30,357 nt of DNA. It comes from a virus. Both the position numbers and the translations under genes were made by a program. The stretch lies in IMG/VR virus record IMGVR_UViG_3300042868_002692, positions 1 through 30,357 of that record; one strand, given 5' to 3'. Numbering within the stretch: position 1 is the first letter of the stretch; the number at the start of each line of letters is the position of its first letter. Shown piece by piece: positions 1 through 30,357 of this stretch. The notes under the pieces were generated by a model. It searched no databases, was not told where the DNA came from, and saw nothing but the letters and a program-made list of their open reading frames with translations.

Positions 1-74
1 TCTCTTTGTGTACAATGTCAGCAAATAGGGTTTCTGATACAAGCACCTGTGATGACAGCAAGAAGGTTTTGGTG

Positions 75-6634: not shown

Positions 6635-7228
6635 ATGGCTATCACCAATGGGTATGCAACACTGGCTGAAGTAAAATCAGCGTTGCGCCTAACAGATAAT
6701 GCAGATGATGCGCTGATTGAACAGGCTATTGAAGGTGCTTCTAGGCGCATTGATGGTTACTGCAACAGATGGTTTTACAAGACCAACGCAACAGCAGTGA
6801 AGTTGTACCCTGCAACGCTGTATCAAGTTGGCACAGATGATATTGCTACTTCATCAATCACACTAAAAATTGATAGTGCTTCTGATGGAACCTTTGCTAC
6901 AACATGGACACAGAACCAGCAGTACCAGATTGAACCTTTGAACGCAGTGATTACTGGCAACCCCTATAGGCGCATTGTGGCTATCAATGGCTACCAGTTC
7001 CCTATTGCTATTGATAAGCCACTGGTGCAGGTCACAGCGCAGTGGGGCTGGAATGCAGTACCTAGTGACATCAAGCAGGCTTGCATTCTTTTATCTATCA
7101 GGGGCTTTGCCAGATTGAACGCAGCGTTGGGTGTTGTCGGCTTTGCTGATATGGCTGTGCAGGTGCGTGCTGTAGATCCTGATGTGCGTGATCTTTTGCA
7201 TACATACAAACTTGAAGTAGTTGCCTGA
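6635..7228 (+). CDS. head-tail connector (adaptor) protein
   Basis: Predicted ring protein docking under the portal, like HK97 gp6 or SPP1 gp15. The 197-aa product begins MAITNGYATLAEVKSALRLTDNADD and continues ALIEQAIEGASRRIDGYCNR, the typical N-terminal helical pattern of the gp6-like connector family. The central part is beta-rich with VAQWGWNAVPSDIKQACILLS, also characteristic. It begins 2 nt after the previous stop, and its stop overlaps the next ATG. Confidence 0.85.
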   Translation: MAITNGYATLAEVKSALRLTDNADDALIEQAIEGASRRIDGYCNRWFYKTNATAVKLYPATLYQVGTDDIATSSITLKIDSASDGTFATTWTQNQQYQIEPLNAVITGNPYRRIVAINGYQFPIAIDKPLVQVTAQWGWNAVPSDIKQACILLSIRGFARLNAALGVVGFADMAVQVRAVDPDVRDLLHTYKLEVVA

Positions 7229-7823: not shown

Positions 7824-8231
7824 ATGGCTGTTCTTGCTCTTACTGATGCCAGCATCACAATCAATAGCGTTTCATTAGGGAATAGAGCCAATAGCGTTTC
7901 TATCAATTATGAAATTGATTCTTTGGAATCAACAGCGTTTGGTTCTTCTGGGCATTCATTTGTTGGTGGTTTGCAAAACCTGTCAGTTGAAATTGCGTTG
8001 ATGCAAGACTTTGCAGCATCAAATGTTGAAGCAACTGTTTATGGTCTTGTTGGCACAACAACAACACTTGTTATCAAACCAACTTCATCTGCTGTTGGCG
8101 CAACAAATCCTTCTTACACAATCACTGGTGCATACTTAGCAGCACACACACCTGTTGCTGGTGCTGTTGGTGAATTGGCTATGACAACGCTTAGTTTTAC
8201 TGGTGGATCTATTGCAAAGGCTGTTGCATAG
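7824..8231 (+). CDS. major tail protein, copy 1
   Basis: Predicted tail tube subunit. The 135-aa protein starts MAVLALTDASITIN and has the beta-rich pattern of tail tube proteins: ANSVSINYEIDSLESTAFG, then GGLQNLSVEIALMQDF, and a C-terminal strand pair ending LSFTGGSIAKAVA. It is clearly paralogous to the next gene. The ends (MAVLALTDA, AHTPVAGAVGELAMTTL) are nearly identical and the middle differs. No SD is obvious; the start lies 2 nt after the preceding stop, in the context TAGTCATGGCTGTTCT, which is repeated at copy 2. Confidence 0.82.
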   Translation: MAVLALTDASITINSVSLGNRANSVSINYEIDSLESTAFGSSGHSFVGGLQNLSVEIALMQDFAASNVEATVYGLVGTTTTLVIKPTSSAVGATNPSYTITGAYLAAHTPVAGAVGELAMTTLSFTGGSIAKAVA

Positions 8232-8233
8232 TC

Positions 8234-8668
8234 ATGGCTGTTCTCGCACTAACAGATGCAGTAATCACTATTGCTGGTACAGCAGTACAAACAAAAGCAA
8301 ATAGTGTTTCATTGAATTATGAAGTTGATTCAATTGAAGTAACAGCGTTTGGTGATACAGGACATAAGTTCGCTGGTGGTTTGCAAAATGTGTCAATTGA
8401 AATTGCGTTGATGCAAGATTTTGCTACAACGATTCCATCAGGATCACCAACAACAAGTGTTGAAGCGTTGATCTATCCATTGGTGGGTACAACTACCACT
8501 GTGACGATAAAGCCAACAAACGCTACTGTTTCTGGTACTTGCCCACTTTATACAGTAAGTGGCACATTCTTATCAGCGCATACACCAGTGGCAGGTGCTG
8601 TTGGTGAATTAGCAATGACCACACTTAGTTTCACTGGTGGATCTGTAGTAAAAACTACTAGCCCATAA
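8234..8668 (+). CDS. major tail protein, copy 2 (tandem paralogue)
   Basis: A 144-aa paralogue of the preceding gene, 2 nt downstream. The same blocks align in order: MAVLALTDA, ANSVSLNYEVDS, GGLQNVSIEIALMQDF, LVGTTTTVTIKPT and AHTPVAGAVGELAMTTL. It carries a short insertion around IPSGSPTTS. Which copy forms the tube, or whether both co-assemble or the second caps or decorates, cannot be told from sequence. Position just before the tail chaperone suits a tube protein. Confidence 0.82.
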   Translation: MAVLALTDAVITIAGTAVQTKANSVSLNYEVDSIEVTAFGDTGHKFAGGLQNVSIEIALMQDFATTIPSGSPTTSVEALIYPLVGTTTTVTIKPTNATVSGTCPLYTVSGTFLSAHTPVAGAVGELAMTTLSFTGGSVVKTTSP

Positions 8669-9753: not shown

Positions 9754-12362
9754 TGGCAATTGTTGTACCTATCATAAGTTCTTTTGATAATCGTGGTATT
9801 CAGAAGGCTATTGCTGATTTCAAAAATCTGAATGGTGCTGGGCAGCGCAGTGCTTTTGCATTGATGAACACCAACAAAGCAGTGAACACAGCAGCAAAGA
9901 ACTTTGCAAAGTTGGGTGCTGTTGGTGCTGGTCTTGCTGGCGTTATTGGTGGTTCACTGGTAAAGGCTGCATATGAATCACAAAGAGTGATGAAACAAAC
10001 TGATGCCATCATCAAAGCCACTGGTGGTGCTGCTGGTCTAACTGGTGATCAGGTTGCTAAGTTGTCGCAAAAGTTATCTTTGCAGGTTGGCGTAGATGAT
10101 GAACTAATCCAAAGTTCTTTGAATCTGCTTCTTACTTTCAAACAGGTACGCAATGAAGTTGGTGCAGGCAATGATGTGTTCAACAGAGCAGCGCAGGCTG
10201 CTTTGGATTTGGGCAATGTTTTTGGTTCTACTGATGCTGCTGCCAAGATGCTTGGCAAGGCTTTATCTGACCCCATCAAAGGTGTAACTGCTCTTGCTAG
10301 GGCTGGTGTGAACTTCAGCCAGCAACAAAGAGATCAAATCAAAACACTGGTGCAATCAGGTAAATCACTTGAAGCGCAGAAGTTGATTCTGGCTGAAGTT
10401 GAATCACAGGTTGGTGGCACTGCTAAGGCTACTGCTACAGGCTTTGACCGTATGAAAGTTGCTATTGGCAATGTTCAAGAGAATCTAGGCAACCTGTTGA
10501 TACCTGCTGTAGAAAGATTTGCTGATGGCATCATCAATAATGTGCTACCTGTCTTAGATCAGTTCACTAAAATTGTTGGTGAACAGGGGCTAGGTGCTGG
10601 TGTCAATTTCTTGGTTGGTTCTATTATCAATGGCATCAATAGTTTGGGTGCTTTTGGCAAAGTTATCATTGGTGTTACTGCTGGCATTGTTGCATTGAAT
10701 GTCGCCACTGGTGTTTATAAAGCCAGCATGATTGCGTTGAACATTGTTACTACTCTTACTGATGGTTCATTGAAGGCATTGATCACCAGACTTGGCGCAG
10801 CCAAGATTGCAATGATGGCAGCAGGTGGTGTAACAGCGTTGCTATCTTTAGCAGCAGTTTTGTATGGAACATACGCAAGCCAAAAAGCCAAAGCAGAACA
10901 GAAAACAATTGATTTCACTAATGCTCTTTTGGCAGAAGGTTCAGCGCAAACTGAAGCCTTCAAAAATCTAACTAAAAACAATTCACAAATGCAGATTGCT
11001 GTAGCAGCATTAGGTGACATGGGCATCAGCATGGCTGATGTAACTGAATACACAACCAAAGGTACTGGAAAGTTCAAGCCTTATGTTGATGCGCTGAAGA
11101 TTCTTGATGAAACTACAGGCACAACACTTACCAAACTTGATGCGTATGCCAAAGCCATTGGTATTGCTGCTACTGCAACAACTTCTGCTGGTGGGTCAAT
11201 GTCTTTTGGTTTATCAGAGTTTGCAAACATGGCTAAAATTGCTAGGGGTGAGACAACTAACACCCAAGCAGCAATGGCGTTGCTGGGCAAAATCGGGATC
11301 ACAGCAGGCAATCAAGTTGGCAGTGGTGCAAAGGTTGTTGAAACAGCAGCACAGAAGTTTGACAAGTTCACTACTGCATTGTTTGGTGCAGCCAACAGCA
11401 ACAAATCTTTTACTGCTGCTGTAAAGGCTTCTAAGAAAGCCCAAAGTGATTTGGCTGAAGCCACACAGAATGTTGTTACTGCACAAACCAAACTGAACCA
11501 GATCGCTGCTGGATATGGTGCTAATTCCACACAGGCATCTGATGCCAGAAAAGAATTGACACAGGCAGAGCGTGACGCAGAGCGTGCAGGGTACGCATTG
11601 GAAACAGCCAACTTTGCTGTGACAGATGCTGAACTTGCGTTGCAAGAAGCCTATGCAAATGGTGACCCAACAGCGATTAGGCAAGCACAGATTGATTTGG
11701 CTGAAGCCAAGTTGAGTGTGAAAGATGCGCAAGATGCTGTAACTACCAGCACAAACAATGTTGCTGCTGCGCAAAAGACATTGAATGAAATTGTGAATGG
11801 TGCAACCACAGAATCACAGACCTATAAAGATGCGCTGGTTGAATTGCAGAAAGCGCAAAAAGATGAACTTGATGCAATTGATTCTTTGAGTGATGCCAAG
11901 TTGCGTGAACTGGAAGCCACCAAAGCCCTAGCAAAAGCAAACCTTCTGTTGAAGCAAAGCAAAGGCAAATTGAGTTCAAAACAAATGAAGGCTGCAATGA
12001 AGGCTATAAATGAACTTACTGTTGCTGTCAATGTGCCACAGCCAACTTCTGTTTCTTCTGCTTCTAGTGGTTCTTCTGGTGGCTTTGATTTTAGTGGTAT
12101 TGATTTGTCAGGTATCAGCATTGGTGGTTTGGCTACTCTTGCTTCTGGTGGGATTGTGACAAAACCAACGCTGGCTTTGATAGGCGAAGGTGGTGAATCA
12201 GAAGCAGTTATACCATTATCAAAGATGGGTGGCATGGGTGGTGATGTTTATAACATCACAATCAATAGCAAGATTGCAGATCAAACTTTGCCTGATGTGT
12301 TAGTTGCTGAACTGCGTAAGTTCAATAGGCGTTCTGGTGCAATTGATATTCAGGTTGCGTAA
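9753..12362 (+). CDS. tape measure protein
   Basis: Sets tail length and is ejected with the DNA. At 869 aa it is the largest gene. It begins with a helical part (ISSFDNRGIQKAIADFKNLN), then hydrophobic segments around residues 48-66 and 345-375 (MMAAGGVTALLSLAAVLYGTY). A long Ala/Gln/Lys-rich coiled-coil region follows (about 545-755), and the C-terminus has the usual LASGGIVTKPTLALIGEGGE and AVIPLSKMGG motif. No lysozyme or peptidase domain is evident. From the usual rule of about 0.15 nm per residue, the tail would be near 130 nm. Confidence 0.93.
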   Translation: MAIVVPIISSFDNRGIQKAIADFKNLNGAGQRSAFALMNTNKAVNTAAKNFAKLGAVGAGLAGVIGGSLVKAAYESQRVMKQTDAIIKATGGAAGLTGDQVAKLSQKLSLQVGVDDELIQSSLNLLLTFKQVRNEVGAGNDVFNRAAQAALDLGNVFGSTDAAAKMLGKALSDPIKGVTALARAGVNFSQQQRDQIKTLVQSGKSLEAQKLILAEVESQVGGTAKATATGFDRMKVAIGNVQENLGNLLIPAVERFADGIINNVLPVLDQFTKIVGEQGLGAGVNFLVGSIINGINSLGAFGKVIIGVTAGIVALNVATGVYKASMIALNIVTTLTDGSLKALITRLGAAKIAMMAAGGVTALLSLAAVLYGTYASQKAKAEQKTIDFTNALLAEGSAQTEAFKNLTKNNSQMQIAVAALGDMGISMADVTEYTTKGTGKFKPYVDALKILDETTGTTLTKLDAYAKAIGIAATATTSAGGSMSFGLSEFANMAKIARGETTNTQAAMALLGKIGITAGNQVGSGAKVVETAAQKFDKFTTALFGAANSNKSFTAAVKASKKAQSDLAEATQNVVTAQTKLNQIAAGYGANSTQASDARKELTQAERDAERAGYALETANFAVTDAELALQEAYANGDPTAIRQAQIDLAEAKLSVKDAQDAVTTSTNNVAAAQKTLNEIVNGATTESQTYKDALVELQKAQKDELDAIDSLSDAKLRELEATKALAKANLLLKQSKGKLSSKQMKAAMKAINELTVAVNVPQPTSVSSASSGSSGGFDFSGIDLSGISIGGLATLASGGIVTKPTLALIGEGGESEAVIPLSKMGGMGGDVYNITINSKIADQTLPDVLVAELRKFNRRSGAIDIQVA

Positions 12363-18406: not shown

Positions 18407-18664
18407 CTAAATCTGCCACCATTCTTTGCCCCACATATAAGCAGGGTGAACGCCAAGCCTGATTGCGATTCTGTCGGCTCTTGCATAATGCACTGTTGCT
18501 GATCCTTCACTGGCACGCCATTTCACAACAGTGCCAATATTGACACCTAACAGTTGTGCAGCATCACGCACAGGTAAGTTTTCTATAGCACGCAATATAG
18601 GTGTTGTTGAAAGCCTTGCTACTCTCTCACGCTTCCACGCATCTTCAACACCTACTTCAGACAT
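18407..18664 (-). CDS. helix-turn-helix DNA-binding protein
   Basis: An 85-aa protein. The central region LPVRDAAQLLGVNIGTVVKW reads as a helix-turn-helix, and the end (ADRIAIRLGVHPAYMWGKEWW) has the A-D-x-x-A-x-x-L-G-x-H-P pattern seen in small actinobacterial and phage DNA-binding proteins, also present at 29104 here. It is the last gene of the three-gene - strand operon, 2 nt after the XRE regulator, and runs into the terminator at 18359. Likely a transcriptional regulator; no experimental role can be assigned. Confidence 0.72.
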   Translation of the reverse strand: MSEVGVEDAWKRERVARLSTTPILRAIENLPVRDAAQLLGVNIGTVVKWRASEGSATVHYARADRIAIRLGVHPAYMWGKEWWQI

Positions 18665-18666
18665 AG

Positions 18667-18939
18667 TTACTTGGGTGTGGGTGTATCCCCATGATGCGCT
18701 GGGTATGCAATCGGCATAATCAATTCACCTGTTGATAAACCCAATGAAGTTTCAATGGCTACAAGATGATGAAGTGATGGTACTGATTTGCCATGTTCCC
18801 ATGCGCTGATCAATGGTTGTGTGATTCCCATGCGCACTGATAGGTCACGCTGGCTAACACCTGCGTTCATGCGTGCAGACAAAATAACTGTTGCGCTGTG
18901 CTTCAGTGTCTCTGGGCTTAGTGTTTGTTTCTTTGGCAT
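18667..18939 (-). CDS. XRE/Cro-CI family helix-turn-helix regulator
   Basis: A 90-aa protein with a classic Cro/CI HTH: NAGVSQRDLSVRMGITQPLI then SAWEHGKSVPSLHHLVAIET. There is no C-terminal dimerisation or LexA-like cleavage domain, so it is Cro-like in size. The RBS AGAAAGA precedes the start. With no integrase in the window it is probably a switch between gene sets or a superinfection regulator, not a lysogeny repressor, though that cannot be excluded. Confidence 0.85.
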   Translation of the reverse strand: MPKKQTLSPETLKHSATVILSARMNAGVSQRDLSVRMGITQPLISAWEHGKSVPSLHHLVAIETSLGLSTGELIMPIAYPAHHGDTPTPK

Positions 18940-19670: not shown

Positions 19671-19740
19671 GAAGCCTTGTGGGGTAAGGGTTTGAAATTG
19701 ATACTTGCGTATCGGTATCACTTGTGCTTATGATGTGGGT
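19671..19740 (+). promoter_or_regulatory. cassette promoter P1 (leaderless)
   Basis: Inverted repeat (imperfect, 6 Watson-Crick plus 1 GU of 8 pairs, 7-nt loop) at 19671-19693, then -35 TTGCGT 19705-19710, 18-nt spacer containing TATCACTTGTGCT, -10 TATGAT 19729-19734, and 6 nt to ATG 19741. A start 6-7 nt after the -10 would coincide with the A of ATG. Confidence 0.75.
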
Positions 19741-19998
19741 ATGGAAACAAACACAAACACCACATCAACAAAGTACGCATGGTTTGAAAACACTGATAAA
19801 GATCAATTTGAAATACACGCACCCAATTGTGCTTGCATCAAGAAATACATAAATCAGATGGTGATTGACACTTCAAGTGTTCATAGCATGAATGCAGCGA
19901 ACACAACAGAAGTTCAAGCAGAACTGATTGCTGTGTATGGATATGACCTAGAAGATGATGAACAAATCACAGTCAAAGTGTTTCCCTGCACTAAGTAA
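19741..19998 (+). CDS. cassette protein 1, unknown
   Basis: An 85-aa product, METNTNTTSTKYAWFENTDKD and onward, with no recognised domain. Two Cys in NCACIKKY and one near the end could be functional; the end reads EQITVKVFPCTK. It is the first + strand gene right of the control region and is followed by a terminator at 20016, so it forms a one-gene unit driven by P1. A TTG start at 19705 in the same frame would overlap the promoter's -35; ATG 19741 is preferred because of the exact 6-nt spacing shared with three other cassettes. Confidence 0.7.
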   Translation: METNTNTTSTKYAWFENTDKDQFEIHAPNCACIKKYINQMVIDTSSVHSMNAANTTEVQAELIAVYGYDLEDDEQITVKVFPCTK

Positions 19999-20799: not shown

Positions 20800-20891
20800 G
20801 TTTGTTCTTTCATGTGTGGGTTTGACACTCTAGGTGCTACCATCAACATCTGCATGGTTGCGCTTAGTGCGTTGTTATGTTTGTTCATGTG

Positions 20892-20923
20892 AAAACCCTG
20901 CTGGCTATGTCAGTGGGGTTTTT
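20892..20923. terminator. terminator-like hairpin in the divergent intergenic region
   Basis: AAAACCC (20892-20898) pairs with GGGTTTT (20916-20922), with further imperfect pairing inside, followed by another T. It lies between the start of the - strand initiator-like gene and the promoter of the exonuclease gene. It would insulate the exonuclease operon from upstream read-through. Confidence 0.65.
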
Positions 20924-20933
20924 GCATTTAGGG

Positions 20934-20972
20934 GTTGCAAGTATGACACACCCATCTGTCATAGTGATAACC
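20934..20972 (+). promoter_or_regulatory. promoter P6 of the exonuclease operon, possibly leaderless
   Basis: A -35 TTGCAA, a 19-nt spacer, -10 CATAGT and 7 nt to ATG 20973, without a recognisable ribosome binding site. The segment CATCTGTCATAGT resembles CACCTGTTATGAT of the promoter before 26772. It is less regular than the four main cassette promoters. Confidence 0.5.
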
Positions 20973-21887
20973 ATGAAACATATAACTAAACCCACACATG
21001 GCAGCCTTGAATGGTTGCAGACACGCCATAAGCATGATGGGAAAACCATTGTGGGCGCATCAGAAGTATCAATCATTATGGGTTGCAATGACTACAAGAA
21101 CATCATTGATCTTGCCATAGAGAAAATGCAGCCACCAGTGGTGCGTGAACAGAATGATGCAATGAAGCGTGGCACATGGCTTGAATCAGGATTGATTACA
21201 GCAGCGCAAGAAGAACTGAACCTGCAAGTTGAAACACCAGAAGTGATGTACCTAAATGGGCGCATTATCGCCACGCTTGATGGGCTTGCTAATGATGGGC
21301 GTTTGATTGAATGCAAGACCACTACAAAATGGCTTGCCAATGATCTGTGCCTACCTGAATGGTATTGGCAAGCACAAGCACAGATGTTTTGCAGTGATGC
21401 TGAACTGGTTACTTTTGTTGTGTTAGATCGCCAACTGCGTATCAGTATGTTCAATGTTGAACGCCACAACAATGATATTGAACTGATGGTTGAAAGGGTT
21501 ACAGCGTTCTGTGAATCCATTGATGCAGACAAACTGCCTGAAGATGTGCCATTGAACTATGCACAGGTATCACTGCTACACCCAGAGCCATCAGGGGAAC
21601 TAGAACTAGACAACGCAGCACTATCACTAATCATGGAATGGAACGCAGCCAAAGCAGCGTTGAAAGAACTTGAACAACTTGAAGCCCGATTGAAAGACCA
21701 GTTAGCCAACCTGATGCGTGACCATGAAACAGCCACCAGTGATGGTCAAAAGGTATTGACATTCAAAGCCCAATCAACCAGCCGATTTGATAGCAAAGCA
21801 TTCAATGATGCACACCCAGATATGGCTAAACAGTTCAGCAAAACAACATCATTCAGAGTGATGCGCACAGTGAAAGGTGCAGTGTGA
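20973..21887 (+). CDS. YqaJ-type phage exonuclease
   Basis: A 304-aa nuclease of the lambda-exonuclease/YqaJ fold that processes DNA ends to give single strands for annealing. Motifs in order: GASEVSIIMG (28-37), RGTWLESG with E72, TLDGL with D103, IECKTTT with E113 and K115, and WYWQAQAQM (131-139). The C-terminal quarter is a charged helix (ALKELEQLEARLKDQL). ATG 20973 is chosen over an upstream TTG that would lie in the terminator. The stop overlaps the ERF gene start, a classic exonuclease-annealase pair. Confidence 0.88.
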   Translation: MKHITKPTHGSLEWLQTRHKHDGKTIVGASEVSIIMGCNDYKNIIDLAIEKMQPPVVREQNDAMKRGTWLESGLITAAQEELNLQVETPEVMYLNGRIIATLDGLANDGRLIECKTTTKWLANDLCLPEWYWQAQAQMFCSDAELVTFVVLDRQLRISMFNVERHNNDIELMVERVTAFCESIDADKLPEDVPLNYAQVSLLHPEPSGELELDNAALSLIMEWNAAKAALKELEQLEARLKDQLANLMRDHETATSDGQKVLTFKAQSTSRFDSKAFNDAHPDMAKQFSKTTSFRVMRTVKGAV

Positions 21888-22666
21888 TGACACAGCCACA
21901 AATATTTAGCCTGCTTACACAAGTGATGACAGATGCTGGTGCAGTGAAGAAGGGTGATTACAACAGCCATCAGAAGTTCAACTTCAGGGGTATTGATGCT
22001 GTGATCAATGCTGTGTCACCAGCGTTACGCAAGCATGGTGTTGTTGTAGTACCAACAGTAATCACAAGTGATTATGAATCTGTGCAGGTGGGGCAGAACA
22101 GAACAGTGATGGGTCACGCACGCATCACAATCACATATACCTTTTACGCACCAGATGGTTCAAATGTTGCTGCCACTGTCAGTGCTGAATCTATGGATAG
22201 TGGCGACAAAGCCACAGCAAAGGCATACAGCGTTGCATTCAGAACAGCACTGCTACAAACCTTGTGCCTGCCAACTGATGAAGCAGACCCTGATTCAGAT
22301 ACTTATGAACGATCACCACATGACGCACCCCAGCGTGAACAGGCAACACGCATTGCAAGACCACAACAGGCTGCACCACAAAATGAACAGCCAAGACCAA
22401 CAACAAAATCATCAGACCCTGCGCCATTATCTAAACCAGCCAACAAACCATCAGGTGCAGTAATCACTGAAGCACAAACAAACTTCATCAACAACCTATT
22501 GAAGCAGACAGAATGTGATGAACAACTGTTGGTTGATCAGTTTGGTTCTGGCATTGCTGGTATGTCATCACAGGTGGCTAAGAAAGTGATTGATGCGCTG
22601 TTGTCTGTGCGTAAGGGTGAAGCAGAAATTGTGTTGGGTTCTGATGGCAAGTTTGTTATTGCTTGA
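21887..22666 (+). CDS. ERF-family single-strand annealing protein
   Basis: A 259-aa protein (GTG 21884 would add one residue). The N-terminal ERF domain includes KFNFRGIDAVINAVSPALRK and the family signature SMDSGDKATAKAYSVAFRTA then LLQTLCLPTD. A Pro/Gln-rich linker (about 145-190) leads to a C-terminal helical domain (ITEAQTNFINNLLKQTECDE). It catalyses annealing of single strands created by the exonuclease and tolerates imperfect homology, which would favour gene exchange. TGATG coupling with the upstream gene. Confidence 0.87.
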   Translation: MTQPQIFSLLTQVMTDAGAVKKGDYNSHQKFNFRGIDAVINAVSPALRKHGVVVVPTVITSDYESVQVGQNRTVMGHARITITYTFYAPDGSNVAATVSAESMDSGDKATAKAYSVAFRTALLQTLCLPTDEADPDSDTYERSPHDAPQREQATRIARPQQAAPQNEQPRPTTKSSDPAPLSKPANKPSGAVITEAQTNFINNLLKQTECDEQLLVDQFGSGIAGMSSQVAKKVIDALLSVRKGEAEIVLGSDGKFVIA

Positions 22667-22853
22667 AATCACTGATGGTGATTGGTTCACTGTGAATGGT
22701 TTGCGTGGCAAGTTTGTTTGTAGGGGCTTCAATCCTGATGGGTCTGTGTGTTGTTTTGGTGGCTCTACAGGTAGGGAACGCTGGCGCAGTTTCCCATTGG
22801 ATAGGGTTTCTAGGATTCTGAAACCCTTACCTAGCAAGGATTTTACAGGGTAG
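22644..22853 (+). CDS. small conserved-looking protein, unknown
   Basis: A 69-aa product from ATG 22644, or 64 aa from TTG 22659. The core, DWFTVNGLRGKFVCRG then FNPDGSVCCFGGSTG and ERWRSFPLDRV, resembles a small beta-barrel protein (G-x-F-x-x-x-G, W-R-S-F) often found in actinophages. Its last 17 codons carry the hairpin arms preceding promoter P2. Its start region overlaps the annealase 3' end by 23 nt in another frame. Confidence 0.6.
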   Translation: MASLLLLEITDGDWFTVNGLRGKFVCRGFNPDGSVCCFGGSTGRERWRSFPLDRVSRILKPLPSKDFTG

Positions 22854-22889
22854 TTGCATCTGGGTATCACCTGTGGTTATAGTTCAGGT
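22821..22889 (+). promoter_or_regulatory. cassette promoter P2 (leaderless)
   Basis: AAACCCTT-N7-AAGGATTT at 22821-22843 (7 of 8 pairs), 10 nt, -35 TTGCAT 22854-22859, 18 nt containing TATCACCTGTGGT, -10 TATAGT 22878-22883, 6 nt, ATG 22890. A second arm GGGTTTC/GAAACCC (22804-22826) gives an alternative stem. Confidence 0.75.
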
Positions 22890-23183
22890 ATGAACACAAA
22901 CACACTTACTGAATTGTTTGCAGCAAGCATTGAATACACACCAATCAAACACGCAAACAAACATGGCAATGGTTTTAGTTGGTCAGTTGCAGCAACATTC
23001 TGTGGCACACCAATTGAAATCTTTGGTTCTAGCAATACAAAAAAAGGCACAGCCAAAGTGGTAACTGCATTCATTGCAGATGAAGTAGGCGATCTAATGA
23101 CCCGATATCAATGGCGTGATGTTGATGGTGCTTGTGACCTGATAGATCAAATGCGTGCCTACACAACAAAGGCTGGCAAGTGA
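22890..23183 (+). CDS. cassette protein 2, unknown
   Basis: A 97-aa product beginning MNTNTLTELFAASIEY. The middle (FSWSVAATFCGTPIEIFGSS, KVVTAFIADEVGDLMT) suggests a small alpha/beta fold. It ends in TTKAGK, an ending shared in part with the cassette genes at 24542 and 26003. The stop overlaps the next start (TGATG). Its middle shows no obvious similarity to those genes, which argues for swapped contents within common borders. Confidence 0.72.
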   Translation: MNTNTLTELFAASIEYTPIKHANKHGNGFSWSVAATFCGTPIEIFGSSNTKKGTAKVVTAFIADEVGDLMTRYQWRDVDGACDLIDQMRAYTTKAGK

Positions 23184-23311
23184 TGAACACACCAGAAAAC
23201 CATGTTTGCCACGATTGCAAAAGAACATTCAAACGCTACACAGATTTGATGTTTCACATAGTCGCAGGCTGCCAACCCAACAAAAAGCAAAAGAAAGAAA
23301 ACCAACAATGA
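23183..23311 (+). CDS. C2HC zinc-finger-like mini-protein
   Basis: A 42-aa product, MNTPENHVCHDCKRTF and onward. C9 and C12, then H25 and C30, give C-x2-C-x12-H-x4-C with hydrophobic residues at F16 and L22, as in classical zinc fingers, followed by a Lys/Gln-rich tail. Overlaps neighbours on both sides by 1-4 nt. Could bind DNA, RNA or a host protein. Confidence 0.62.
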   Translation: MNTPENHVCHDCKRTFKRYTDLMFHIVAGCQPNKKQKKENQQ

Positions 23312-23493
23312 ACACATCAATAGAAATAATCACAAGTCACAGCACAGTGCTAGGCGCAAAAGCCTTTCTGATATTGGGTGAATATGCACGCAACGGTAAC
23401 GCTGTGCAATCCTTGCCACTGTCAGCAGATGAACTACGCCTACTGGCTGTTGAACTACTTGAAGCAGCATCACAGATGGAAGTAACACAATGA
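23308..23493 (+). CDS. small helical protein, unknown
   Basis: A 61-aa product MNTSIEIITSHSTVLGAKAF then LILGEYARNG, and a C-terminal acidic helix (SADELRLLAVELLEAASQME). RBS AGAAAGAAAA with good spacing. Its stop overlaps the next start as ATGA. Function unknown. Confidence 0.6.
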   Translation: MNTSIEIITSHSTVLGAKAFLILGEYARNGNAVQSLPLSADELRLLAVELLEAASQMEVTQ

Positions 23494-23999
23494 GTGATGA
23501 CCAGCCAAACCTGTTTGATGATCAAGACCCATCAGATGATGAACTGTTGCCCTATGCAGGCACAGCAGGGTATGTGAACCAGCCTGCCAGCAAAGACAGA
23601 GCCAACAGAGAAGCAGCCACTGGTGAAGCCACAGAGCGTGCCAGACAGATACTGCGCACACTGTCGCAACACCCAGCAGGGCTGACCTATCAGCAGGTAG
23701 GTGATCTGTTGAATCTGCATCATGGGCAATCTTCTGGTGCGCTGTCAATCCTTCACAAGAATGGCGTGGTGTTTATGTTGCGCAAGAAAATCAACAGGTG
23801 TCATGTGTATGTGCATTCTGATCAGCGTGGCAAGTATGAAGATGCTGAACGCATTGATGAACCTGCTTCTACTGTGTCTGGGCGTAGGCGCAAAGAACTA
23901 GAACAGTTATTAGAACTTGTGATTGAACAGGTGCGTTGTAGAAACATCACAGACCCAGCATTAGTTGCCCACGCAATACAACTTCATAATGATCATTGA
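23490..23999 (+). CDS. winged-helix DNA-binding protein
   Basis: A 169-aa protein. After an acidic, disordered start the central part has a winged-helix pattern: ARQILRTLSQHPAGLTYQQV, GDLLNLHHGQSSGALSILHK, NGVVFMLRKKINRCHVYVH. A C-terminal charged helix follows (RRRKELEQLLELVIEQVRC). Proteins like this occur in actinophage early regions; a regulator or host-chromatin protein is likely. ATGA overlap with the upstream gene. Confidence 0.66.
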   Translation: MSDDQPNLFDDQDPSDDELLPYAGTAGYVNQPASKDRANREAATGEATERARQILRTLSQHPAGLTYQQVGDLLNLHHGQSSGALSILHKNGVVFMLRKKINRCHVYVHSDQRGKYEDAERIDEPASTVSGRRRKELEQLLELVIEQVRCRNITDPALVAHAIQLHNDH

Positions 24000-24472
24000 T
24001 GTTCTACACTTGCTGCATGACAGAAGAAGAAGCAGCACGCAAGGGTGAATGCCCATGTGGGTGTGATCTGTATGGCAACATCACAAACCAACGCCATGTG
24101 CGTGGCTGTGTCTGCAAGCGTTGCATGGGTGCTAGGAATCGGCGCAAGGGTCTAAACAAACAGCGCACAGCACGCAAGGCTTTAGGTGTGAAACCATCAA
24201 ACAAGTTTGGTGATGCCAATGAAGAAAACTGGCAAGATTCATTGTTTGCTAATGAAGTGAAAGCAGGCAAGCAGATACAGCCAGCAGTTACAGCATGGCT
24301 ACGCATAGAAGCACAAGTGATAGGTAATCAATCTGACTATGGAAGCCTGCGTAAGCCCACCAGAGCAGTGCTAATGCCTGATGGCTGGTCTGATGGGCTG
24401 GTAATGGTCAAGTTGTCTGTGTGGGCTGAACTGATCGCACCTGCGCTGGCTGCCTACTATGACCAATCCTAA
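23999..24472 (+). CDS. Cys-rich nuclease-like protein, resolvase candidate
   Basis: A 157-aa product. A Cys-rich N-terminus (GECPCGCDL and CVCKRCMGARNRRKG) suggests a zinc site. A basic stretch follows, then NKFGDANEENWQDSLFANEV and KAGKQIQPAVTAWLRIEAQV, and finally PTRAVLMPDGWSDGLVMVKL. The E-V-K-A-G-K segment fits a PD-(D/E)XK-like endonuclease core, and the ordering resembles small phage nucleases/resolvases. The call is tentative. It starts at the overlap TGATG. A shorter start at 24017 would also keep the Cys cluster. Confidence 0.48.
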   Translation: MFYTCCMTEEEAARKGECPCGCDLYGNITNQRHVRGCVCKRCMGARNRRKGLNKQRTARKALGVKPSNKFGDANEENWQDSLFANEVKAGKQIQPAVTAWLRIEAQVIGNQSDYGSLRKPTRAVLMPDGWSDGLVMVKLSVWAELIAPALAAYYDQS

Positions 24473-24541
24473 AACCCTTGCTGTATAAGGGTTTGCACAG
24501 GGTAGTTGCGCATGGGTATCACCTGTGCTTATGATGGGTGC
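24472..24541 (+). promoter_or_regulatory. cassette promoter P3 (leaderless)
   Basis: Perfect 8-bp inverted repeat AAACCCTT-N7-AAGGGTTT at 24472-24494, 11 nt, -35 TTGCGC 24506-24511, 18-nt spacer with TATCACCTGTGCT, -10 TATGAT 24530-24535, 6 nt, ATG 24542. The hairpin begins inside the stop codon of the upstream gene. Confidence 0.78.
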
Positions 24542-24820
24542 ATGAACAAAAACACATACACAGCAACATCAAGCAATGGCACAGTGGCAACACGATCAAC
24601 AAAGAATGAATACAAATACTGCGTGTTCTCAACAAGGGTTTACCGTGACCGTGTGAATGGTGGACTTATTGCAGGTTCTGAACGCATCATTGCAGAATGG
24701 ACATCACGCATGGATCTGGCGCAGAAGTTAGTGAACAAAAACATAAGTTCCGTGAACACAGATTTTGATGCTTACTACATTGCTTGTGAAATCGTTGAAG
24801 CAGTGAAAGCAGGCAAGTGA
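24542..24820 (+). CDS. cassette protein 3, unknown
   Basis: A 92-aa product beginning MNKNTYTATSSNGTVATRST. The rest has beta-strand-like segments (YKYCVFSTRVYRDRVNGG) and helical stretches (ERIIAEWTSRMDLAQKLVN, YYIACEIVEAVKAGK). It ends KAGK like cassettes 2 and 4 and its stop overlaps the next start. No domain recognised. Confidence 0.72.
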   Translation: MNKNTYTATSSNGTVATRSTKNEYKYCVFSTRVYRDRVNGGLIAGSERIIAEWTSRMDLAQKLVNKNISSVNTDFDAYYIACEIVEAVKAGK

Positions 24821-25023
24821 TGAAAAGGCAACACACACCAATCAACCAGTTGATTCTGGAAACCAAAGATCTGTCAATGTTCACCATTGAACGCATCATC
24901 ACTGCTGATGCAAAGTATTGGTTGCTTACAGATCTACGCAATGGCGCAACACGCCACTACAAAACCAAATACAACGCAGAACTTGCAATCTGTTCAGTAG
25001 TCAAATGGGCAATGAAGCCATGA
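24820..25023 (+). CDS. small protein, unknown
   Basis: A 67-aa product, MKRQHTPINQLILETKDLS and onward. The pattern FTIERIITADAKYWLLTDLR then NGATRHYKTKYNAELAIC suggests alternating strands and helices, possibly a small nucleic-acid-binding or host-interaction protein. It starts at the TGA/ATG overlap with cassette gene 3. Confidence 0.58.
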   Translation: MKRQHTPINQLILETKDLSMFTIERIITADAKYWLLTDLRNGATRHYKTKYNAELAICSVVKWAMKP

Positions 25024-25394
25024 ACACATCATTCAATCAGCGCATTGGGCGCAGGCTGTTTACATCAGAAATAGAACTGATCATTGAACTGCACAGAACA
25101 CTTGATATTGCCTGCGCCAAACAACAGTTAGATAAGCAACGCCTAGTTGATGCAGCACGCAGTGTTGCCCCAGAAGATTTTGCTGAATGGCAAGTTCTTG
25201 TATGGGCTGTTGATGGTGCGCAAACCATGACCCACAAGAATCGTGATTGTGGCGTGTCGCTGGCTTACAAAGGCAACACACAAATCACAGTTGCTGATGA
25301 TGCTTGTGGTAAGTGTGATGGCACAGGCAAATACATATTCAGTTCAGGTGCTGTAGGCATCTGCTACCAGTGCAACGGTAAAGGCAAACAATGA
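25020..25394 (+). CDS. protein with DnaJ-type zinc ribbon
   Basis: A 124-aa product. The N-terminal two thirds are helical (FTSEIELIIELHRTLDIACA, LDKQRLVDAARSVAPEDF). The end has two C-x-x-C-x-G-x-G motifs, CGKCDGTGKY and CYQCNGKGKQ, as in the DnaJ Cys-rich zinc domain. Possibly binds a host protein or acts as an adaptor. The region also appears in other phages at the end of otherwise unrelated proteins. Confidence 0.66.
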   Translation: MNTSFNQRIGRRLFTSEIELIIELHRTLDIACAKQQLDKQRLVDAARSVAPEDFAEWQVLVWAVDGAQTMTHKNRDCGVSLAYKGNTQITVADDACGKCDGTGKYIFSSGAVGICYQCNGKGKQ

Positions 25395-25612
25395 ACACAC
25401 AACCAATCACAATCATCACAGCATCTGATGTCACACCAGAATGCTTGCAAGCAGCAGAAGAAGTGTTTGATGGGTTCTTCAGCCCAACAGAAAACATTGA
25501 TTGGTGTTCTTTCCTAGATCGCCTAGAAGCATGGGGCTGGTGTTCACCAACACTGGATTCACCAGCCATCAACAAAATCAAACGCCACATCAACAAGATC
25601 AAGCACCAGTAG
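25391..25612 (+). CDS. small acidic protein, unknown
   Basis: A 73-aa product starting MNTQPITIITASDVTPECLQ with a C-terminal basic helix (AINKIKRHINKIKHQ). ATG overlaps the previous stop (ATGA). No domain is visible. Confidence 0.57.
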   Translation: MNTQPITIITASDVTPECLQAAEEVFDGFFSPTENIDWCSFLDRLEAWGWCSPTLDSPAINKIKRHINKIKHQ

Positions 25613-25616
25613 AACC

Positions 25617-25934
25617 ATGATCACAACTGTTGGCATTTCTGTGCGCTGCGACAATGGCAGGTGGTCAGCACACGCCATTCTGAATGGCATGGTGATCAGC
25701 AGCAGTTGTATGCACAACCACCAGACCAGCATCAACGCACAGGTGTGTGGCAGGGTCTTTGTGCGCAGATGGCTGGATATAGCCACCAGACCCCACCAGA
25801 TCACTGAACTGGCTTCTGAAGGCTGCTGGGTGCTGTCTTGGGCTGATGATGCTGGCAGGCAGGTTACGCACAGGTTCAGGTGGCTTGCCCCTGAAACCCT
25901 TGCCAGCAAAGCCAATCAGATTGGGCAACCATGA
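25617..25934 (+). CDS. small protein, unknown
   Basis: A 105-aa product, MITTVGISVRCDNGRWSAHA and onward, Trp- and Cys-rich (FVRRWLDIATRPHQIT, EGCWVLSWADDAG, HRFRWLAPETLAS). It shows strand-like segments but no family. It starts 4 nt after the preceding stop. The end overlaps the start of the region carrying promoter P4 (ATGA at 25931). Confidence 0.55.
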   Translation: MITTVGISVRCDNGRWSAHAILNGMVISSSCMHNHQTSINAQVCGRVFVRRWLDIATRPHQITELASEGCWVLSWADDAGRQVTHRFRWLAPETLASKANQIGQP

Positions 25935-26002
25935 AACCCTTATCTGGCTTGGGTTTGGCAGGGTACTTGCGTTTGCCAATCACCTGTGCTTATAATGTCT
26001 GT
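25934..26002 (+). promoter_or_regulatory. cassette promoter P4 (leaderless)
   Basis: AAACCCTT-N7-TTGGGTTT (6 central-outer pairs, inner TT mismatched) at 25934-25956, 10 nt, -35 TTGCGT 25967-25972, 18 nt with ATCACCTGTGCT, -10 TATAAT 25991-25996 (consensus), 6 nt, ATG 26003. Confidence 0.78.
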
Positions 26003-26335
26003 ATGAACACACACACAAACAGCACAGACTTCACCACCTACAAGGGTGTAACAATTTTCAATGTACGCAACGCACGCAATGGTGGCAACAAGATTCAGAA
26101 TCGTGACATTGCAATCACCTACCTTGCAGACAAATGGTGTGCTGCTGGTGATGCTTACCGTTCTTCATCAAACATCAAGCGTGCGCACGCAATGATTGAT
26201 TGGTTGCTTGCAAATGGCGCACCAGTTGTTGATGGTCGCATTGTTGCAACAATGGATCTTGTAGATACTTGTGAGTTTGGTTGCCAAGCAAGAAACATTG
26301 ATGGCTACTGGATCTTTATGAAGGCTGGCAAGTAA
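26003..26335 (+). CDS. cassette protein 4, unknown
   Basis: A 110-aa product beginning MNTHTNSTDFTTYKGVTIF. It has a basic strand region (NVRNARNGGNKIQNRDIAIT), a helix (IKRAHAMIDWLLANG) and the tail GYWIFMKAGK. Shares the start and the KAGK end with cassettes 2 and 3. An in-frame ATG 25931 could add 24 residues on read-through transcripts. Confidence 0.72.
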   Translation: MNTHTNSTDFTTYKGVTIFNVRNARNGGNKIQNRDIAITYLADKWCAAGDAYRSSSNIKRAHAMIDWLLANGAPVVDGRIVATMDLVDTCEFGCQARNIDGYWIFMKAGK

Positions 26336-26730
26336 TGAACAGCAAAAAAACAATCACCTGCAACAACTGTGGCAAAACCAATTTGAAATGGGAAACCAGC
26401 AAAGCAGGCAACTATTACTTGACAGATGCAGAAGCAACCAGCATCACCAACGCCAATGGCACAGTAATCAAAACCATCAGACCAGCACACCAGTGCTTGA
26501 CACCTGAACAGCAAGAGATTGCATCAGGCTTCCAGCAGGCAGCAGATCAGGCACACTTGCTTGAAGCAAAGCGTGATGCAATCAAAGCACAGATTGATGA
26601 ATTGTTATCGGCTGATGATTTGACAGATGATGCTGTTGCGCTGGTGCGTACTCTTGGCAAGCAATCAGTAGTGATCACTGGCGAGATTCAAGCGTTGCAG
26701 GTCAAGTTCAACAATGGGTGGCAGTTCTAA
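26335..26730 (+). CDS. zinc-ribbon protein, unknown
   Basis: A 131-aa product. CNNCGKTNLKWETS near the start plus HQC at about residues 52-54 form a likely zinc site. A long helix follows (FQQAADQAHLLEAKRDAIKA and onward), then a C-terminal GEIQALQVKFNNGWQF. May bind DNA or RNA; starts at the TAA/ATG overlap with cassette 4. Confidence 0.62.
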   Translation: MNSKKTITCNNCGKTNLKWETSKAGNYYLTDAEATSITNANGTVIKTIRPAHQCLTPEQQEIASGFQQAADQAHLLEAKRDAIKAQIDELLSADDLTDDAVALVRTLGKQSVVITGEIQALQVKFNNGWQF

Positions 26731-26741
26731 TGAATACCAGA

Positions 26742-26771
26742 AACACCATCACCACCTGTTATGATTCAGGT
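26742..26771 (+). promoter_or_regulatory. weak cassette promoter P5
   Basis: A -10 TATGAT at 26760-26765 with 6 nt to ATG 26772 and CACCTGT directly upstream, as in P1-P4, but three bases (GCT) are missing, and neither a -35 nor the upstream hairpin is clear. Translation could instead begin at the overlapping ATG 26730. Confidence 0.5.
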
Positions 26772-26981
26772 ATGAACACACACACAACATCAAAAGTTAC
26801 CTACGCAGATTGTCCTGAAGATGGTGGTAAGTGGGCTATCTACTGCGAACACTTTGATAACACTGGCGAGATTATCGGCACAGGTCTTGTGCAAGACACC
26901 AACAAACGCAGGCTTGCGACATGGCAAAAGCACAGCATTGACTGGTGCTGCTACTGCCAAGAAGAAAGAGATGCAAAGTAA
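26772..26981 (+). CDS. cassette-like protein 5, unknown
   Basis: A 69-aa product beginning MNTHTTSKVTYADCPEDG. The end has CYCQEERD, with Cys residues in CC-x-C, and the middle strand segment KWAIYCEHFDNTGEIIGTGL. An in-frame ATG at 26730, which overlaps the previous stop, would add 14 residues, so two starts are possible. Stop overlaps the next start. Confidence 0.62.
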   Translation: MNTHTTSKVTYADCPEDGGKWAIYCEHFDNTGEIIGTGLVQDTNKRRLATWQKHSIDWCCYCQEERDAK

Positions 26982-30229: not shown

Positions 30230-30357
30230 CCCCAGCACCCAACACACCCAACCCCACCCACACCACGCACAGACCCATACAGAGCGTCTGACAGGCAACC
30301 AGCACCCAACGCTGCCCCCTGTATATGCGATTTTTCTAGGGTGGGGTTCTTCTTCAC
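30230..30357. other. right-end non-coding segment, possible cos or genome end
   Basis: 128 nt with no gene, very rich in C and A on the + strand, then a short T-rich stretch and GGGTGGGGTTCTTC at the end. It lies after the HNH gene and before the terminase if the ends are joined. CCCCCT and AGGGTGGGG could pair weakly. No terminal repeat with the left end was seen. Such a place fits a packaging end but nothing proves it. Confidence 0.35.

Follow-up and report, generated by a model that had tools for sequence, protein, structure and literature searches.

Why should three small phage genes begin and end alike when their interiors show no clear similarity? The question is raised by a viral stretch of 30,357 nucleotides (IMG/VR record IMGVR_UViG_3300042868_002692, positions 1–30,357, one strand; hereafter the window), in which genes starting at 22890, 24542 and 26003 open with MNTNT, MNKNT and MNTHT and close with TTKAGK, AVKAGK and FMKAGK, respectively. 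A sequence-only reading of this DNA had taken the shared borders around unlike centers as the mark of a cassette-exchange system, served by the phage's own YqaJ exonuclease and ERF annealase. An old question stands behind it: are phage genomes made mosaic by recombination at short boundary sequences, or by illegitimate joining on which selection then acts as a filter? Comparison with relatives from IMG/VR (whose loci or contigs carry L-numbers below) reveals a recurring pattern of border and cargo, slots whose contents change, and three-way chimeras with in-register joints inside the border. Homology-directed exchange at what we predict to be leaderless start borders is, on these comparisons, the likely explanation.

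Common ends around unlike interiors

The three open reading frames (ORFs) were confirmed with the starts and ends given above. They lie, like all features below unless otherwise indicated, on the plus strand, at 22890–23183 (97 residues), 24542–24820 (92 residues) and 26003–26335 (110 residues), and will be called the cargo genes of slots 1, 2 and 3. Full-length homology among them is not seen: for all three pairs, the score of the protein interiors is matched or beaten by 16–85% of shuffles, and the DNA interiors, scoring below the largest shuffle score, are not alignable. A seeded search of viral contigs returned no relatives of the three interiors, so that the past slots of these genes are not traceable. 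None of the three matches a family, and among five cargo proteins of the window and ten of its relatives no usable family was found, the matches being one phrog of unknown function and one sub-threshold MmcB-like hit.

The left border

The sequence-only reading had also posited a shared upstream promoter. The upstream blocks do form a genuine repeat family, but that description was incomplete, as the window holds four copies of 86 nt and a short fifth, two of them before genes without a KAGK end, and the repeat includes a phased dyad near -60. Three copies are the left borders of slots 1 (22819–22904), 2 (24471–24556) and 3 (25932–26017). A further copy at 19672–19755, found as a repeat match before the early region, leads into an 85-residue leaderless-type gene (METNTNTTS.., 19741–19998, no family match). 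The short copy at 26748–26786, a fourth-slot promoter and start lacking the dyad, sits directly behind the second gene of slot 3 and opens a 69-residue leaderless-type gene (MNTHTTSKV.., 26772–26981) with homologues in L022 and L011. The border core ATCACCTGTGCTTATGAT occurs four times in the window against 0.02 expected.

The border spans ~86–100 nt and comprises the dyad, -35 and -10 elements, an ATG six bases past the -10, and CA-rich first codons that spell MNTNT or METNT. In slot 1 the dyad reads GAAACCCTT..AAGGATTTT and the -10 is TATAGT; the -10 elements of slots 2 and 3 are TATGAT and TATAAT. An iterated profile search over 161 loci gave 96 matches; 45 distinct units remained once a fitting promoter geometry, an ORF no shorter than 25 codons and a distinct context were required. 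In the 41 of these with non-redundant interiors, information content per 5-base bin reaches 1.60 bits at the start codon and 1.18 at the -10. The two arms of the dyad score 0.6–0.8, the sequence immediately before the -35 register 0.74 and positions +10..14 score 0.84; from +30 on, ~0.1 bit is left. The spacing between -10 and ATG was scored as 6 nt in 34 of the 45 units; a spacing of 4, scored in six, is partly an effect of greedy matching (the window's own TATAAT-GTCTGT-ATG at 26003 is 6 by eye). Because the start codon sits six bases behind the -10, the geometry is that of a leaderless mRNA, and we predict the transcripts to be leaderless. The same METNT start pattern also appears in L172, L176, L178 and L179, contigs of 33–109 kb.

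CA repeats 3' of the start codon are said in a review to enhance leaderless translation (PMC9031893, citing Martin-Farmer and Janssen, 1999), and the ATGAACACAAACACA-type start region behind the predicted leaderless start resembles them. The enhancers that the review describes are known from E. coli, whereas the likeness here is one of sequence alone; the CA codons may be a translation aid. The element ATGAACAC has eight of its ten occurrences at ORF starts (2.8 expected) and may extend border-like microhomology to other gene starts.

The dyad, AAACCCTT-N6..8-AAGGGTTT (AACCCTT..AAGGGTT), is centered at about -60: of the 45 units, 31 have the first arm at -69/-68 and 33 have the second at -55/-54. 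In L057 (5330) and L059 (7716) the first arm lies at -79/-80, 10–11 nt farther upstream, or one helical turn. Phasing of this kind suggests that a regulator binds here and has to face RNA polymerase. The dyad has a folding energy of -3.7 to -9.6 kcal/mol, lacks a T-run and touches the upstream stop codon in slots 2 and 3 (directly so in slot 2). A terminator would fit less well than a bound regulator, because the phasing to the promoter is fixed and its two exceptions are one helical turn away. Two small helix-turn-helix-type proteins encoded on the minus strand at 18407–18939 adjoin the first border copy; that at 18667–18939 matches phage repressor families, and the one at 18407–18664 is so assigned by eye. 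They are candidate regulators of the dyad or promoter.

The right edge

At the other end, the three cargo genes have AARGCNGGCAAGTRATG in common, found as AAGGCTGGCAAGTGATGA at 23169–23186 (KAGK with the stop/start overlap), AAAGCAGGCAAGTGATGA at 24806–24823 and AAGGCTGGCAAGTAATGA at 26321–26338. The cargo stop and the following ATG share one base in every case (TGATG, TGATG, TAATG), and the 18-mer occurs three times in the window against 0.04 expected. The cargo end AARGCNGGCAARTRATG, KAGK plus the overlap, marks three units in the window and two in L080, where local shuffles give an expectation of 0. ORFs ending in AGK number 6 of 124 predicted in the window clade, five of them these cargo genes, versus 3 of 1101 elsewhere. 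As a general right border, which the sequence-only reading had made of it, KAGK fails: relatives of the METNT type use AAAGGAAACC..ATG (two to five copies in L007, L008, L010, L012, L022 and L083, against ~0 expected) or otherwise a plain stop/start overlap. Since these relatives have AAAGGAAACC..ATG instead, the KAGK edge is, in the contigs compared, local to the window and one close relative. The KAGK-coding DNA could conceivably form part of the next gene's ribosome site; AAAGCAGG, six bases before the ATG, looks suggestive by eye as a Shine-Dalgarno sequence but was rejected as such on the pairing result given further below.

What the slots contain in relatives

A survey downstream of ERF covered 30 loci and found a unit in 16 and none in 12, the other two being too short. 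In 14 of the 16 the slot 1 ATG lies 211–226 nt behind the ERF match, and those 14 carry 11 cargo families; the count excludes units of L002 and L003 lying 137 nt behind ERF, the border-type units of these two standing further downstream (2315, 11163). Similarly, behind the homologue of window 23996–24469 a unit is present at 7 of 14 places, with five kinds of first gene. At slot 3, four different contents (in the window, in L002, and in L080a and L080b, the two probable haplotypes into which contig L080 was split at 10735) precede homologues of one second gene, which in the window is MNSKKTITCNNCGK.. at 26335–26730. A slot may also hold next to nothing. Where L080a has a cargo gene, L005 has an ORF of just 11 codons, joined by an ATGA overlap to the second gene that the two have in common; slot 1 of L008 is empty, its promoter being followed by a short leader and AAAGGAAACC. 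Behind the empty promoters at L008 10917–10960, L003 7310–7350 and L005 178–200 stands a short leader in which ATCAGG..CCTGAT is hairpin-like, and there is a ribosome-site spacer as well; promoter plus leader is possibly the unoccupied form of the slot.

The second genes vary as well. That of slot 1 in the window (MNTPENH.., 23183–23311) starts within the cargo stop and is a small gene, C2H2-like by eye. It stands in place of the relatives' gene (L003 11396, L080 reverse complement 2322, L005 ~3900), which has a zinc-ribbon-like start and a HELAH motif and is SprT-like by eye. The second gene of slot 2 (MKRQHTPINQ.., 24820–25023) has a homologue in L080 (reverse complement, 11676) that is fused directly to the promoter ATG in L080b.

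Several comparisons separate the ends of a cargo protein from its core. In L080, one core (89.7% identical over 174 nt) is found as MNTNT-core-TNKAGK in slot 1 and as MIT-core-SASSI in slot 4. METNT+TSRKHNT.. of L006 corresponds to M+TSRKHNT.. of L022, and ..AIKAGK in slot 3 of L004 to ..AIKATR of L007. Members of the FTHKN, IIKFTAGEE, Zn-finger and MKAGNY families are promoter-led with the start tag, and also ribosome-site-led or translationally coupled without it. Because a single L080 core carries different ends in slots 1 and 4, the shared ends are, as far as these sequences go, a property of the slot and not of the cargo protein.

Joints inside the border

If contents are exchanged at the borders, otherwise alike genomes should carry different contents between the same borders, with breakpoints in the borders. 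This is seen several times over. L009 and L010 agree at 96.6% over a stretch of 1864 nt that reaches 2 nt beyond the slot 1 ATG; the cargo is unlike thereafter, and the alignment resumes 1–2 nt after the L009 cargo stop. Their promoters already differ at -45..-30, so that the joint may lie anywhere from there to the ATG. L080a and L005 show 93–100% identity in each 15-nt bin down to -30 and 33% from +15, and both lead into the same SprT-like gene. L018 and L020, too, keep the promoter and differ in the gene. At the right edge of slot 2, identity is 92–93% after the second-gene ATG and 27–28% before it.

Three-way comparisons place the joints of recent exchanges inside shared sequence. The promoter of L008:14458 matches that of L010:5379 at 39 of 40 positions, and the first 22 nt of the gene are nearly common to L008, L009 and L010 (21–22 of 22). 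Past these, L008 matches the L009 slot 1 gene at 38 of 38 and 147 of 150 positions, on a backbone mostly 81–89% identical between the two. The joint of L010-type promoter to L009-type gene thus lies within ~22 nt of the ATG. L006, compared with the same L009 and L010, has an L009-type promoter followed by an L010-type start and gene, with the switch inside the promoter at -29..-13.

The borders also supply homology between otherwise unlike units. Exact matches of at least 23 nt occur in the border in 26 of 985 unlike-cargo pairs, against 0 of 985 for equally long interior controls, and 22 of 45 units have a border partner at this threshold whose upstream flank is unlike too. When edges of high-scoring segment pairs (HSPs) were counted between the window and its near relatives, with HSPs below 60 nt dropped, 18 of 67 fell at leaderless or second-gene starts versus 3.3 expected, the largest of 10,000 draws being 12.

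How the contents might be exchanged

The phage does encode the two enzymes that the sequence-only reading had named. A RecE/YqaJ-like exonuclease lies at 20877–21887 (phrog_434, 5e-63; PF09588, 5e-10) and an ERF single-strand annealing protein at 21884–22666 (phrog_155, 1e-33; PF04404, 8e-25). In a study of relaxed recombination by Rad52-like phage recombinases, Erf of phage D3 is reported to come close to Red in recombination efficiency on DNA of 100% and of 78% identity, and Red-beta is said to need a pairing segment of at least 23–27 nt (PMC3945230). The likeness to that account extends beyond the encoded pair of Erf and RecE-like nuclease, since identity and length of the borders here fall within the range those enzymes accept. 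It differs in that the homology here is only ~100 nt of regulatory DNA. The RecE/YqaJ–ERF pair is plausibly the catalyst of the exchange.

We envisage the early region as a chain of short transcription units, most of which would open on the same border and close either on a stop overlapping the next ATG (KAGK-TRATG here) or, in relatives, on the repeated ribosome-site spacer AAAGGAAACC..ATG. Both edges recur, from unit to unit and from phage to phage, which would make exchange possible. Relatives infecting the same cell could then anneal at them and swap the intervening content or the promoter. One and the same promoter would in the end be followed by unrelated small genes, by a mini-ORF or by nothing at all. 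The first ~5 and last ~4–6 residues of the cargo proteins would be supplied by the slot. More tentatively, the border may combine the roles of operator, leaderless promoter and translation enhancer with that of a substrate for recombination, a self-perpetuating slot format that would serve as a platform for homology-driven exchange and need no dedicated recombinase. If this is so, any gene placed between the start tag and the stop/start edge would be expressed at once, tagged at its ends, and spread by the phage's annealase to other phages or slots.

Weighing the alternatives

Some observations weigh against this explanation. The borders do not stand out among gene starts, for HSP edges are no less enriched at the starts of other early genes (24 of 67 versus 6.9 expected). 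Since start codons throughout the early region serve as joints, the mosaicism at gene boundaries is a wider one, of which the leaderless borders are the most clearly marked instance. Where stop and start overlap, selection alone forces functional joints onto the ATG. No such unit was found behind ERF in the 12 loci mentioned above; for 4 of the 45 units, no other unit of unlike cargo and flank matches the border over 15 nt or more; and the KAGK-coding DNA pairs with the 16S rRNA tail no better than shuffled sequence, 14–32% of shuffles being as good. Finally, L080 (IMGVR_UViG_3300020042_005272) carries a 121-bp exact repeat at 6955–7075 and at the contig end (reverse-complement coordinates) together with a doubled gene block, and is probably two strain haplotypes strung together in assembly; therefore only its local joints are trusted, and not its long-range order.

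The clustering of edges at all early start codons is what one would expect if recombination were illegitimate, with joints arising anywhere, only gene-preserving ones surviving, and borders conserved for expression as leaderless promoters and stop/start overlaps. Border conservation does track functional elements (-35, -10, ATG, CA codons), and a mycobacteriophage study prefers this explanation, boundary sequences being absent from most joints in its account (PMC3029335). Gene integrity, however, does not call for in-register joints inside the promoter (L006) or the ORF (+1..+22 in L008; +12 in L080), nor does this explanation sit well with exact matches of 23–53 nt between unlike-cargo units that are not seen in interior controls; we consider it unlikely. 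That the border itself is mobile, a promoter/start block of T4 PeSL (promoter early stem-loop) type that jumps or is copied before resident genes and adds first codons to them, strikes us as rather doubtful. It would explain why the same cores occur both with promoter and tag and without, as in the four families and the L006/L022 pair above, and why L009 and L010 differ already at -45; a fixed slot position behind ERF with varying cargo, and the pairs L080a/L005 and L018/L020, which keep the promoter and change the gene, speak against it.

Nor does it seem at all probable that the cargo genes are remote homologues, diverged fast from tandem duplications of one unit with only their ends kept. 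The first genes are indeed small orphans with like beginnings, and the folds predicted without alignment for two cargo proteins of the window are of low confidence (predicted local distance difference test scores of 52 and 48). But the three interiors do not rise above shuffles, ends vary on a single core just as a single end is found on unlike cores, and cargo 98–99% identical occupies different slots of phages whose backbones are mostly 81–89% identical. Least credible of all is a dedicated site-specific cassette system, integron-like or driven by a recombinase. Recurrent fixed slots with recurrent borders might suggest one, but the joints spread over -60..+22 and do not fall at one point, and no integrase or invertase family match was obtained among the 20 window proteins scanned, a set outside which the structural half lies; besides the RecE-like enzyme, the only nuclease matches in that set were HNH-like. 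What survives of the proposed cassette-exchange system is, accordingly, exchange at the borders, with ERF in an inferred role, and not a dedicated system. Homology-directed exchange at the predicted leaderless start borders remains the explanation we favor.

Relation to known systems

Nearest in concept are the PeSL elements of T4-type phages, which Arbiol and co-workers reportedly described in 2010 as mobile regulatory cassettes and proposed as a target for homologous shuffling. Both arrangements place a repeated promoter and an inverted repeat between small, swappable orphan genes. The border studied here differs in passing through the predicted leaderless ATG into the first codons, which gives slot-coded protein ends; in having a dyad that keeps a set distance from the promoter, near -60, as a free terminator would not; and in belonging to a 30-kb phage of actinobacterial type and not to a T4-type phage.

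Among actinophages, the start-associated sequences (SAS/ESAS) of cluster K mycobacteriophages are repeats at the starts of many unlike non-structural genes, half with an upstream inverted repeat; the authors who described them suggested that recombination might target them (PMC3203893). SAS is described there as a 13-bp element resembling a ribosome-binding site, GGGATAGGAGCCC, 3–7 bp before the ATG. The passages on these elements document no exchange or slot change, and SAS is not in excess in the window (2 matches at up to 3 mismatches versus 1.95 expected). In the case of Brujita and Island3, Island3 gp68 is reported to share only its last 18 residues with the product of an upstream gene (PMC3029335). 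There, too, recombination is at short shared boundaries, and the common C-terminal end recalls the KAGK ends; that report, however, gives one case, as opposed to a repeated border, many alleles and three-way chimeras. We therefore file the finding as a variant of boundary-sequence mosaicism, in which the leaderless start border as an edge is the new part; no description of such a leaderless promoter/start border as an exchange edge was found in the literature searched.

With borders that recur, slots that have many alleles or stand empty, and three-way chimeras with joints inside ~20–30 nt, the old question of boundary sequences versus filtered illegitimate joining can be put to a direct test. 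The first gene behind a leaderless border offers a way to find fast-moving early genes in such phages. The finding also carries a warning, that shared protein ends can reflect the slot rather than the protein.

The window and its surroundings

The relative L003 bridges window position 30357 to position 1 with a gap of ~10 nt, so that the window genome is probably complete and circularly permuted. The host is probably actinobacterial, since the ERF of the phage has relatives in phages of Mycobacterium and in contigs of Brevibacterium and Micromonospora. The 21-kb contig L079 is 100% identical to the window over 2409 nt; the queried stretch of slots 1–2 is unmatched there except for one promoter copy, so that L079 does not cover the slots. 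Among the structural genes, window 7824–8668 holds a tandem duplication, two adjoining genes with stretches of ~80% identical DNA (7886–8014/8296–8424 and 8114–8218/8548–8652).

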